Part shown: positions 1-55,983 of the stretch, piece after piece
How the letters are laid out: every line of letters starts with the position of its first letter
Position numbering within the stretch: position 1 is the stretch's first letter
Origin: Desulfarculus sp.
Lineage (GTDB): Bacteria; Desulfobacterota; Desulfarculia; Desulfarculales; Desulfarculaceae
NCBI GenBank assembly: GCA_016218705.1
Contig: JACRDC010000083.1
Location: 54,620-118,619 of the forward strand
Direction: 5' to 3'
Length of the DNA: 64,000 nt
Notes under the pieces: model-generated
What the model was told of the DNA's origin: nothing
Seen by the model: the letters and a program-made list of their open reading frames with translations, nothing else
Databases searched by the model: none
Program-made: the position numbers and the translations under genes

Positions 1-94
1 AGCAGGCGTGGGTGCCCAGGTCCTTGAGCCCCAGCACCGTCTCGCCGCCCTCGCGGGGGGCGCGTCCGGCCAGGTCGTAGATGGTGGCGGGCAT
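1..94 (-). CDS. partial CDS running off the left edge (N-terminus MPATIYDLAGRAPREGGETVLGLKDLGTHAC...)
   Basis: ATG on the minus strand at 92-94, preceded by SD GGGAGGAGAC; open to the window edge; same direction as the radical SAM gene upstream. Confidence 0.5.
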   Translation of the reverse strand, partial: MPATIYDLAGRAPREGGETVLGLKDLGTHAC

Positions 95-146
95 GTCTCC
101 TCCCAGGTATTGTGACTGCCCGGCGGGCCTGCCGCCGAGGCTGGTT

Positions 147-1322
147 TTAATCCGCTGGCGCGGGCTGCTCCATGAGGGCGCAGAGCACCGGGTCGGGCCG
201 GTCCGGGGCCGGGGCGCGGAAGCGGCAGCCGCCGCCGCAGTCCAGGGCCACCTGGCAATCGCGGCAGCCTTGCACGCGGGCCAACTCCAGGGGCCGCCGG
301 CGCTGCCAACAGGTCCACAGCCCCTCCTCTGCCCGGCCCAGGGGGTCGTCCAGGTAGAAGCCGCATTGGGCTACCCGCCCATCGGCGGCCACGGTGGCCA
401 GGTGCAGGCCGCAGGCCAAGGCCTGGCCCTCAGGCCCGGTGCCGCTGCCGTGGTAGGAACCGCCAAAGGCATAAGCCATGGCCTGGGCGGCCTCCCGCGG
501 CGTAACCGCCAGCTCGGGGTGCTGGCTGAGCCTCCCAGCCAGGCAGGGCGCGTCTATGCCCCACTCGCGGGCGCCCAGGTCTTGCACCAGCTCGGCCAGG
601 CCCTCCATCTCGGCCAGATTGCCGGCGTGGGCCATGGTGGCGATGGACAGACCCAGCCCCGCCGCGCGCACCCGGCGGGCGGCCTCCAAGGCCGGCGCGA
701 AGCTGCCCGGCCCCCTGAGCATCTCGTGGCCGGGCGCCAGGCCGTCCAGGCTGATCTGCACCTCGTCGCAGTTTAGCCCGGCCAGGCGCTTCTCATCCAG
801 CAGCAGACCGTTACTTAAGAGCACCCGGCGCATGCCGGCGGCGCTCAAAAGGGCGTTGATCTCCGGCCAGGCAGGGTGCATCAAGGGCTCGCCGCCGCTG
901 ATGAGCACCCTGAGGCCGTTCATGGCCTCGAACTCCCTGAGCAGGGCCGCCACCCTCGCCACGGGCATATCCACCCCCCGGGCCGGCCCCAGGTAGCAGT
1001 GGCGGCAGGCCAGGTTGCAGCGCCAGGTGATTTGCAGCTCCAGGTAGCGCAGGGAGGGCAACGGGCCGGGTCCCAGGGCCAGGGGCCGGGGCCGGGGCTG
1101 GTCGTGTAGAACAAGAAGGCCCTCGGCCAGGCAAAATTGCTGGAACTCGGACTCCAGGCCCACCTGCTCCAGGGTCAGGTGCCCCCGGCAGAGCTTCAGG
1201 GCCGTTAGGCCTTCGTCGTTGAGTTCGTAGAGGTCGTCGTTATTGCGGTCGTAGAGGCAGGGGGTCTCCAGCAGGCGCAGGCAGACGTGCCCGGCCAGGC
1301 TGACGTACTGGGGGCCGGCCAC
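147..1322 (-). CDS. radical SAM/SPASM peptide maturase with N-terminal RRE/PqqD-like region
   Basis: CNLACRHC radical SAM motif, GGEPL motif, C-terminal SPASM-like CGF..CRDCQVALDCGGGC; N-terminal ~90 aa (YVSLAGHVCLRLLETPCLYDRNNDDLYELNDEGLTAL...) resembles a PqqD/RRE fold. Confidence 0.88.
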   Translation of the reverse strand: MAGPQYVSLAGHVCLRLLETPCLYDRNNDDLYELNDEGLTALKLCRGHLTLEQVGLESEFQQFCLAEGLLVLHDQPRPRPLALGPGPLPSLRYLELQITWRCNLACRHCYLGPARGVDMPVARVAALLREFEAMNGLRVLISGGEPLMHPAWPEINALLSAAGMRRVLLSNGLLLDEKRLAGLNCDEVQISLDGLAPGHEMLRGPGSFAPALEAARRVRAAGLGLSIATMAHAGNLAEMEGLAELVQDLGAREWGIDAPCLAGRLSQHPELAVTPREAAQAMAYAFGGSYHGSGTGPEGQALACGLHLATVAADGRVAQCGFYLDDPLGRAEEGLWTCWQRRRPLELARVQGCRDCQVALDCGGGCRFRAPAPDRPDPVLCALMEQPAPAD

Positions 1323-1325
1323 GGG

Positions 1326-1649
1326 CTACAGGCCCAGGTCGCGGCCCGCAGCCAGGAGCCCGGCCACGGCGCGCAGCCCGCCGCAGGGGGCGCAGTCGGC
1401 CGGGTCCACGGCCGGGTCGCGGAAGTCGCAGCCGTCGGCCTGGTACTCGCAGCCGGCGCAGACCTTGTGCAGGCGGGGGTCGTCGGGTTTCAGCCCGAAG
1501 AGGGGGTTTGACCCCTGGGGGGCCAGGCGGTGTATCTCGCCGGCCAGGTGGGGCCGCTTTTCCAGCCACGCCAGCCCGCCGCAGCCGGGTTCCTCCCGGC
1601 GGCCGGGCTTGTGGTAGCGGCACAAAGGCTGGCAGACGGCCTGGCGCAT
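1326..1649 (-). CDS. 107-aa Cys-rich protein, SPASM-like cysteine spacing
   Basis: SD GGAGG before ATG; Cys pattern CxxxC...CAGCEYQADGC...CAPC; 3 bp from the maturase gene. Confidence 0.72.
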   Translation of the reverse strand: MRQAVCQPLCRYHKPGRREEPGCGGLAWLEKRPHLAGEIHRLAPQGSNPLFGLKPDDPRLHKVCAGCEYQADGCDFRDPAVDPADCAPCGGLRAVAGLLAAGRDLGL

Positions 1650-1662
1650 GGTCCTCCAAGCG

Positions 1663-1693
1663 AAAAGGGGGGAGGCCGTTAACGCCTCCCCCC
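1663..1693 (-). terminator. intrinsic terminator/attenuator-like hairpin between the 20-aa ORF and the 107-aa gene
   Basis: Minus strand GGGGGGAGGC-GTTAACG-GCCTCCCCCC followed by TTTT; perfect 10-bp stem. Confidence 0.7.
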
Positions 1694-1709
1694 TCGTGCT
1701 AGCCTCGGG

Positions 1710-1772
1710 CTAGCAGGAGCTCTTGCATTTGCAAAGCCCGCGCTGGCTGCGCACGATTTTCTGGATCTTCAT
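1710..1772 (-). CDS. candidate RiPP precursor peptide MKIQKIVRSQRGLCKCKSSC (20 aa)
   Basis: ATG with SD GGGAGGAAGATC-ATG and TAG stop; three Cys in the last 7 residues; located directly upstream of maturase genes; absent from the ORF track because of length. Confidence 0.68.
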   Translation of the reverse strand: MKIQKIVRSQRGLCKCKSSC

Positions 1773-1816
1773 GATCTTCCTCCCGGCCCCTTCTTGGGGC
1801 GTTTGTGTTACCTCAA

Positions 1817-1845
1817 ATTGTTGCAACGGCCAGGGCCGTTGTCAA
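1817..1845 (-). promoter_or_regulatory. sigma70-like promoter for the 20-aa ORF with a dyad in the spacer
   Basis: Minus strand TTGACA - 17 nt - AACAAT; spacer overlaps the perfect inverted repeat CAACGGCC-ag-GGCCGTTG (1824-1841). Confidence 0.5.
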
Positions 1846-1859
1846 GGGCCGGGTGGGGA

Positions 1860-3131
1860 TTAATCCAGGCGCGGATTGAAGTAGCCATGCCTTAGCCTGG
1901 GGAAGCGGGCGCGCATCATTTTTATGAGCTGCTCCATGCCCAGGCGCTTGTCCGGCTGGCCCAGGCCCAGCTCCTTGAGGTACACCTCGGTGTCTATGTT
2001 CAGGTTGCGCCACTGGATCATGTCCAGGCCGGTGTCCTCCACCAACTGGCACAGGGCCTCCACCTCCTCGGGCCGGTCGGTGAGCCCGGGCAGGCACAGG
2101 AGGTTGATGGAGCAGAAGCGGCCCACCCGCTTGACCTCCTTGATGGTGGCGATGGCGTCTGTGAGCGACCAGCCGTTGGGCTGGTAGTAGGCCTGGTGGC
2201 GCTCCGGGATGAGGCTGTTGAGCGACACGCGCATGGAACTCAGGCCCTCGCGCAAGAGCCGCGCCGCCACCTGGGGCAGGCTGCCGTTGCTGTTGAGATT
2301 GATGGTGCCCTTGGGCCTCAACTGGCGTATCTGGCTGATGGCCTCGGCCAAAAGTTCACCCATGAGCAGGGGCTCGCCCTCGCAGCCCTGGCCGAAGCTC
2401 ACCAGGGGGTCGCGGCCCTTGTTGAAGTGGTGCAGGGCCACCTCGGCCACCTCGTCGGCGCTGGGGGTGAACTTGATGCGCTCCTGGGTGGCCGGGAAGC
2501 GCCCCGTGGGCTGGCTGGAGAGGCAGCCCAGGCAGGAGGCGTTGCAGGCCGGGCTGGTGGGCAGTGGCCCCTCCCAGCGCCCCAGCATCAGATTGCGCGC
2601 CGCCGGGCAGCAGTTGGTGAGCGCGCAGGTGCCCAGGTGCTGCCATAGGCGGTTCTTGGGGTAGGAGCGCAGGAGCTTCTTGGCCGCCAGGGCCAGACGC
2701 TCCGGGGCGGGGAAGCGGGCGGCGTCCTGGCGGGGCGAGGAATCCACGCGCAGGCCGGCGGCCACGAAGCCCCCCCGCGAGAAGCCCACGGCCGTGTAGG
2801 CGAACAAGGGCAGGGTGGGCGCGCCGGCCTGGGTCTGGTAAGCGGCGCTCAAGGTGCTGGTATGGGCCGGCGCCAGGAAGGCAGCCACCGCCGTGGGCTT
2901 GTGGTAGGGGTCGTTGGGGTCGGACTCCAGCACCTCCAGGCGCCCGCCCGGCCCCACCCCCACCGGTAGGCGGCCAGGCAGCAGGAACAGCTCGCTGCCC
3001 TCGGGCAGGGGGATGCACTGGGTCTCGTCCACCGGCTCCCAAGCGCCGGCCGCCGCGCCGGCCATGGCCAGGCCGGGATGATCGTAGATATTGCCTTCAT
3101 GGTCGGCGTAGACCAGGCGGGGGGCGCTCAT
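1860..3131 (-). CDS. radical SAM domain protein (423 aa)
   Basis: CNASCLGC CxxxCxxC motif and radical SAM-like barrel; extended N-terminal domain. Confidence 0.85.
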   Translation of the reverse strand: MSAPRLVYADHEGNIYDHPGLAMAGAAAGAWEPVDETQCIPLPEGSELFLLPGRLPVGVGPGGRLEVLESDPNDPYHKPTAVAAFLAPAHTSTLSAAYQTQAGAPTLPLFAYTAVGFSRGGFVAAGLRVDSSPRQDAARFPAPERLALAAKKLLRSYPKNRLWQHLGTCALTNCCPAARNLMLGRWEGPLPTSPACNASCLGCLSSQPTGRFPATQERIKFTPSADEVAEVALHHFNKGRDPLVSFGQGCEGEPLLMGELLAEAISQIRQLRPKGTINLNSNGSLPQVAARLLREGLSSMRVSLNSLIPERHQAYYQPNGWSLTDAIATIKEVKRVGRFCSINLLCLPGLTDRPEEVEALCQLVEDTGLDMIQWRNLNIDTEVYLKELGLGQPDKRLGMEQLIKMMRARFPRLRHGYFNPRLD

Positions 3132-3227
3132 GCATGCCTCGCGGGAGGGTGACTGGGATAAAAAGGTTATGATACCCCATCAAGGCGGGGCTGGCTTGCC
3201 CCGGGGACCGGGATGACCGGTCCGGGG

Positions 3228-3764
3228 CTACTTTATGGCCTTAAGCCAGACCTCCACCTCCAGGGCGGGCCATAGCCAGGCCAGGTGCTGCTCGTAGAAG
3301 CGGCCATGGCGGTTGGCCCAGGCCGCGATGCCCAGGCCGCCCCCGCGCCCGAAGATCAGCCGCCGGCTCTGCATCCGGTAGCGAAAGGCCAGGGGCTTGA
3401 AGTCGTCCACGGCCAAGCCGCAGAAGTAGTCGAAGCTGTACAGCCCCAGGTGCAGGCGGTGGCTGGGGTCGGTGAAAGAGGCGGCGGACGAGAAATGGGG
3501 CGTAAGGACATGGACCAGGCCGCCGGGCATAAGCACCCGGTGCACCTCGCCTAAAAGGGCCGCCAGGTCGGCGGCGTGCTCGGCCACGTGGCCAAGCCGC
3601 GCCCGCTGGAAGCTATTGTCCTGGAAGGGCAGGACCTTGCTGAAGTCGGCCACCAGGTCCACCCCGGGGTGGGGGGCCAGGTCCAGGCCCACGGCCCCGG
3701 GAAGCTTGCCCCGGCCGCAGCCGATGTCTAGCACCAAGTTACGCACCGGTGACACGATATTGAC
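3228..3764 (-). CDS. class I SAM-dependent methyltransferase
   Basis: VLDIGCGRGKLPGAVGLDL motif I and VLMPGGLVHVLTPH; start chosen among GTG codons near 3746-3764 because the upstream ORF extension runs into the hairpin repeat. Confidence 0.78.
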   Translation of the reverse strand, partial: VNIVSPVRNLVLDIGCGRGKLPGAVGLDLAPHPGVDLVADFSKVLPFQDNSFQRARLGHVAEHAADLAALLGEVHRVLMPGGLVHVLTPHFSSAASFTDPSHRLHLGLYSFDYFCGLAVDDFKPLAFRYRMQSRRLIFGRGGGLGIAAWANRHGRFYEQHLAWLWPALEVEVWLKAIK

Positions 3765-3777
3765 CGTATCCTGGATT

Positions 3778-3931
3778 GCGGGCCATGGATGGCCCGCCGG
3801 GCGCGCCAGCGCCCGGGAGGCCTGGCAAAACCACGGGGTCCCCACAAAACGAAGTTTTGTGGGGTGTAACCACGCTTTTACCAGGCCGATAGGCCATCAA
3901 AGCCATGGATGGCTTTGATGGCCTCCTGGTA
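3778..3931. repeat. mosaic hairpin repeat, copy A
   Basis: Successive hairpins GCGGGCC-atggat-GGCCCGC (3778-3797), CCGGGCGC-gcca-GCGCCCGG, CCCCACAAAAC-gaa-GTTTTGTGGGG (3840-3864), AGGCCATCAAAGCC-atggat-GGCTTTGATGGCCT (3891-3924) inside TACCAGG/CCTGGTA. Confidence 0.8.
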
Positions 3932-4012
3932 TAGAATACGCGCTGACATGGCAGCTTATTAGCACGGCGGGCGGTGGCCAGGCAACCGCCCGCGCCCAGG
4001 GAAGGACAGGGC

Positions 4013-55553: not shown

Positions 55554-55750
55554 GCCGGCTCCCTGAAGGTTGTCGCCGCTTGGCCCCAATGGCCGGGGCA
55601 CACAAAGGTCCGCCCCGGTGGCAAGCGCCGGGGCCAAAGGCTTATCCCACTATAGTGAGCGCCGGGCAAGGCGTCAACAACCTGTGATTTTTGGTTCATC
55701 AGGCCCTGGCGGTTGACGGGGCGGACGGCGGTTGCTAGGGTTAGGCATGC

Positions 55751-55880
55751 CTGGGGGTGCCCCAACGGGATGCTGAAAAAGTCCGTCCATGGACTTTTCA
55801 ACTCGTGGCTGAGAGCTCCGCGATAGATGCGCGGGGCGACCCCTAGAACCTGATCCGGGTAATGCCGGCGAAGGGAACGG
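55751..55880 (+). promoter_or_regulatory. TPP riboswitch (THI element) with extended P3 arm
   Basis: GGGGGTGCC ... GGCTGAGAG ... CGACCCCTAGAACCTGATCCGGGTAATGCCGGCGAAGGGAA; upstream of thiD-thiC. Confidence 0.93.
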
Positions 55881-55983
55881 CTGGTGTCCATCGGCCCCAC
55901 GCGGTCCTTGACCACCGGCCGTCCGCGCCGTCAACCGGCCGGACGGCCTTGGTCTTTGGGGGCCGGGGCCAGGAGTGGGCGCG

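Follow-up and report, generated by a model that had tools for sequence, protein, structure and literature searches.

A 20-codon gene and the radical SAM/SPASM gene close to it, near the left edge of the window (the whole 64,000-nucleotide stretch of DNA that was analysed), very likely encode the precursor and maturase of an undescribed RiPP-type pathway, for which there is no biochemical evidence. The best explanation of the data is a new RiPP precursor-maturase family that probably forms thioethers. The gene, its conservation, its linkage to the maturase in both search directions, the fusion of a neighbouring protein to that enzyme and the RRE/SPASM anatomy were established computationally. 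Few radical-SAM-made peptide-derived cofactors are known, and their precursors escape gene calling. With a 20-codon precursor and an accessory protein that matches no Pfam or PDB entry, the system is a strong new candidate, and its fixed core makes the chemistry of the peptide directly testable. The features of the locus are collected in Table 1.

Table 1. Features of the peptide-maturase locus in window coordinates.
Feature	Position	Strand	Remarks
Start of cupin-like protein (117 aa in the full contig), truncated by the window edge	1..94	-	Cupin_2 match below cut-off
391-aa maturase with RRE/PqqD-like domain (residues ~5-75), radical SAM core and SPASM domain	147..1322	-	PF04055, PqqD profile, fold
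107-aa Cys-rich protein, putative accessory subunit of the maturase	1326..1649	-	Neighbour of the maturase; fused to it in f61
Terminator-like GC-rich hairpin with T run, directly 3′ of the peptide stop	1663..1695	-	12-pair stem in fold
20-aa precursor peptide gene, MKIQKIVRSQRGLCKCKSSC	1710..1772	-	~33 genomes, length constant at 20 aa, core CKCxSSC
5′UTR hairpin (5-bp stem, ANGAA loop), immediately 5′ of the Shine-Dalgarno sequence	1786..1800	-	15/19 loci
Promoter of the peptide gene, TTGACA-N17-AACAAT	1817..1845	-	10/12 consensus matches
Second radical SAM protein, 423 aa, no SPASM match	1860-3131	-	Ends just 5′ of the peptide promoter

The peptide gene is a compact unit of promoter, 5′UTR hairpin, Shine-Dalgarno sequence, 20 codons and terminator. 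The initial annotation, made from the sequence alone, had described a short frame with a good Shine-Dalgarno sequence and a promoter-like sequence of its own, followed by a Cys-rich protein and a radical SAM/SPASM enzyme. Both signals were present, the former as GGAGG, and the two downstream genes were located as described. The promoter-like site was the only one in positions 1-4000 (0.2 expected), and in relatives a TTGACA with an AATAAT-like second hexamer again occurred 5′ of the peptide. The terminator-like hairpin and the covarying 5′UTR hairpin had not been reported. Hairpins like the former occur 3′ of the peptide in families f1 and f2 and in record CP070673. The 5′UTR hairpin showed double changes at all five pairs in f1 and f2, with all cells pairing, and only 4 of 9500 segments in a shuffled control contained an ANGAA hairpin, against the 15 of 19 loci observed. 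Since these hairpins were found through their own motif, the percentage paired is biased. The hairpin was not found in the f61, f27 and CP070673 copies examined. By inference, its role may be to stabilise a short, highly expressed mRNA or to bind a protein. At one locus (L096, 9572-9819, minus strand) two peptide genes stand in tandem, one with the core CKCHSSC and the other with CKCKSSC, and both have a 5′ hairpin and a terminator of their own.

The 20-aa ORF is a real gene, and purifying selection on it is strong. Simple counting over 29 distinct gene copies, without correction for phylogeny, gave pN/pS values of 0.186/0.720 for the whole gene and 0.062/0.754 for the core (residues 14 to 20 plus the preceding residue). 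Every copy has 20 residues and three Cys. In the core CKC[K/H/A/R]SSC the residues C14, K15, C16, S18, S19 and C20 are invariant and only position 17 varies. This conservation pattern fits the division proposed in the initial annotation into a leader, formed by the basic N-terminal half, and a C-terminal core.

The peptide-maturase system occurs mostly in Desulfobacterota, in at least six families, and in one record that the tree tool labels Myxococcota (CP070673), which brings the total to about 33 genomes. In profile searches 17 f1 and f2 genomes had the peptide, at E values of 1e-10 or better. Neither peptide nor maturase was found in G002, G006 and G011, and in G013 the contig end cuts the maturase. 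Orthologues of the maturase were present in the same family and order as the window genome, and those beside the peptide were 36-89% identical to the window enzyme. A search blind to the enzyme, whose only query was a degenerate DNA pattern of the peptide and which was run over 395 genomes of the phylum and two further orders, returned, besides copies in f1, distant ones in f61, f27, f50 and f11, each of the latter adjoined by a maturase orthologue of 36-59% identity; in G442 and G117 the maturase beside the peptide is truncated at the contig end. All 20-codon pattern matches adjoined a maturase orthologue except in G020, where a contig break places peptide and maturase at two contig ends and a Cys-rich-like frame comes straight after the peptide. 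A pattern match with longer spacing in G158 (C33) had a different reading frame content and was left out of the counts as a chance match. In the reciprocal search 10 maturases were found in the 18 genomes of the f61 order, with the peptide beside 10 of 10; two of these peptides begin MTIKK (MTIKKVVKMSKGLCKCKSSC) and lie outside the pattern, which demanded MKI. The peptide was present wherever a maturase orthologue had complete surroundings. Searches in both directions thus bear out the expectation of the initial annotation that the short ORF is conserved beside maturase orthologues, and no peptide ORF with better conservation was noticed in the vicinity. Outside the Desulfobacterota a single scan was made, for close relatives of the enzyme. 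In a search of plasmids, all matches were to distant radical SAM proteins and extended over less than 80% of the query.

The three Cys codons of the short ORF, with a terminator immediately after it and Cys-rich genes beyond, could also mark a regulatory leader peptide, with ribosome stalling at the Cys codons controlling the terminator in a cysteine-responsive attenuation of the downstream genes. This was rejected, and we give it next to no weight, because selection acts at the amino acid level across the entire peptide while synonymous sites are free to change, because the f27 peptide sits 3′ of the maturase, and because the tandem copies in L096 each have a terminator. In g4, moreover, a DUF192 gene separates peptide and maturase.

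The N-terminal domain of the maturase, which had been called RRE/PqqD-like, matched PqqD domains from related genomes in a profile comparison (92.8% probability, E 4e-7), whereas seven other slices of the same enzyme, used as controls, reached only 0.1-0.2%. The RRE was not detected by Pfam and PDB sequence HMMs. An AlphaFold2 model of a natural fusion of Cys-rich protein and maturase from G158 (pLDDT 88.6) had SkfB, the best match, SuiB and CteB as its nearest folds, all RRE-bearing RiPP maturases. In 24 of 24 maturases all 12 Cys are invariant, comprising the CxxxCxxC motif, seven SPASM Cys and two in the N-terminal domain, and these enzymes form a fully supported clade that excludes 13 further SPASM proteins from related genomes. 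The SPASM part matches C-X9-15-G-X4-C...CX2CX5CX3C...C, the canonical 7-Cys motif.

The maturases have no Cys a short way N-terminal to the first of the seven SPASM Cys. This pattern is consistent with a SPASM domain that probably holds an open, under-ligated cluster site, as far as can be judged from the sequences. In CteB and SkfB an auxiliary cluster leaves a site open that can accept a substrate Cys (PMC8326336). Because the Cys pattern is consistent with such a site, thioether formation is the favoured chemistry, with roughly an even chance of being right. It is not forced, since SuiB, also a close fold match, makes C-C bonds and has fully ligated clusters (PMC8326336). The three core Cys together with the probable open site are compatible with a thioether of the sactipeptide or ranthipeptide type, the thioether itself being inferred.

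The peptide might instead remain unmodified and be, rather than a substrate, a tiny ligand for metal or Fe-S that acts as a subunit or cluster-delivery factor of the radical SAM enzyme. While CxCxxxC is plausible as a metal site and the peptide is strictly linked to one enzyme, the RRE-like domain implies recognition of a peptide substrate, and the separate strong promoter, the terminator and the tandem copies suggest an excess of peptide over enzyme. Furthermore the peptide is never fused to the enzyme, whereas the Cys-rich domain is. We regard such a role as very unlikely and infer with high confidence that the maturase modifies the 20-aa peptide. The RiPP-like reading of the initial annotation is supported.

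The Cys-rich gene adjoins the maturase gene in f1, f2, f11, f50 and CP070673, and at loci of the f1/f2 type it lies directly 5′ of it wherever the sequence extends that far, with the 20-aa peptide again 5′ of both. In f61 it is fused to the N-terminus of the maturase, and because of this fusion the protein is assigned to the maturase, of which it is best read as a putative subunit. It has seven invariant Cys and one nearly invariant Cys, and gave no convincing match in Pfam, PDB sequences or PDB folds. No NCBIfam or Pfam family describes either this protein or the precursor. In f27 just a 65-aa Cys-containing frame was present, overlapping the maturase start. The operon is completed in three families (f1, f2 and f11) by the cupin-like gene 3′ of the maturase. 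This gene was found in 17 of 40 relatives, in all 17 together with the maturase and nowhere else among the 40; the Cupin_2 match was below cut-off in all five members (5/5). The peptide gene has a flavin pyridine-nucleotide oxidoreductase as neighbour in f61 and f27 (L088-L089, L127-L131 and L090, L133). The enzymes of the two families are distant and of different subfamilies, and as possible redox partners they give a weak hint of a redox role. The second radical SAM protein, upstream of the peptide, was rejected as a general component, being present only in L101/L035, L045/L021 and L100/L041.

The scores of the window enzyme and of the G158 fusion were below every NCBIfam cut-off among the matches listed. 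Membership of the GeoRSP-like class, which the initial annotation had mentioned, is unsupported: both systems pair a radical SAM/SPASM protein with a PqqD-like part and occur in related bacteria, but this part is fused to the maturase in the window system, and the enzyme matched TIGR04303 over the core only, with 66.9 bits against a cut-off of 400. Sactipeptide maturases (AlbA, SkfB) likewise have a radical SAM core with auxiliary clusters. Unlike those systems the window system is without exporter or immunity gene, and the maturase was far below the cut-off of all NCBIfam sactipeptide models. The ranthipeptides (SCIFF/CteB) share a conserved Cys-rich precursor thought not to be antimicrobial and an RRE-SPASM maturase, but the criterion of six Cys in ~45 residues is not met by any copy of the 20-residue, three-Cys precursor; the window system also has the extra Cys-rich protein and the cupin and belongs to another phylum. 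With mycofactocin and PQQ it shares a very short precursor with an invariant end, a SPASM maturase and the lack of transporter and immunity genes (PMC3023750). Its core, in contrast, has no aromatic residues, no other maturation genes of those systems were seen, and the maturase scored far below the cut-offs of TIGR03962 (60.2 bits, cut-off 265) and TIGR02109 (57 bits, cut-off 381). A literature search returned nothing on CKCKSSC or geopeptide, and GeoRSP solely in an unrelated paper.

In the pathway that we propose, the short gene would yield the 20-aa precursor from its own promoter and terminator, and the RRE-like domain of the maturase would be the docking site for the basic N-terminal half (MKIxK[IV]xR...). 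The radical-SAM cluster would generate a 5′-deoxyadenosyl radical that abstracts a hydrogen from a residue of CKCxSSC, most likely K15, S18 or S19, since apart from the Cys no other core residue is invariant. A Cys thiolate bound to the under-ligated SPASM cluster could then close the thioether. The Cys-rich protein or domain would act as a maturase subunit, and the cupin may serve in late tailoring, as a carrier or in metal binding. The product is envisaged to remain inside the cell, where it would have a redox or metal role, either as a cofactor or as a carrier.

Neither a peptide exporter nor a leader peptidase nor an immunity gene was recurrent in the neighbourhoods of the system, and no protease was seen for it, in agreement with the initial annotation, which had noted the lack of a visible transporter or protease. 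The near-invariant core and the absence of export and immunity genes suggest a cofactor-like rather than an antimicrobial product. The main alternative is a RiPP with an exported product, an antimicrobial, signal or metallophore. The enzyme architecture is that of bacteriocin maturases, the patchy distribution and an f50 sequence falling within the f1 clade suggest horizontal transfer, and in g4 genes for metal and cobamide transport lie close by. Antimicrobial peptide cores usually diversify, whereas this core is almost constant across maturases down to 36% identity; the adjacent transporters, moreover, are confined to few genera. We consider export rather unlikely. An intracellular redox or metal cofactor-like product is favoured over it, by analogy and with the chances about balanced, because the near-invariant core, the lack of a recurrent exporter or immunity gene and the very short precursor mirror the reasoning by which mycofactocin was proposed (PMC3023750). 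The more specific reading, in which CKCxSSC is cross-linked by its own radical SAM enzyme and Cys-rich subunit into a new ribosomally derived cofactor that carries electrons or metal within the cells of Desulfobacterota, as mycofactocin and PQQ do in other bacteria, is tentative and falls somewhat short of an even chance.

A copy of the system is present in G007, which is probably Desulfarculus baarsii and, if so, would make a host that can be cultured available. In a previous survey of RiPPs in anaerobes D. baarsii was named once, for a precursor of the nitrile-hydratase-leader type (PMC4289311).

Two sets of transport genes were rejected as parts of the system. The BtuFCD/CbiZ genes, considered as a peptide importer, resemble cobamide salvage genes and stand beside the peptide only in g4, and the SO_0444 efflux and ArsR genes occur in g3 and g4 only. 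In one genus (L094-L097, L099) the system is surrounded by a BtuFCD-like transporter with a CbiZ fusion, DUF192 and an SO_0444-type Cu/Zn efflux protein with ArsR. Elsewhere in the window a TPP riboswitch was detected at 55743-55894 on the plus strand (61.5 bits).
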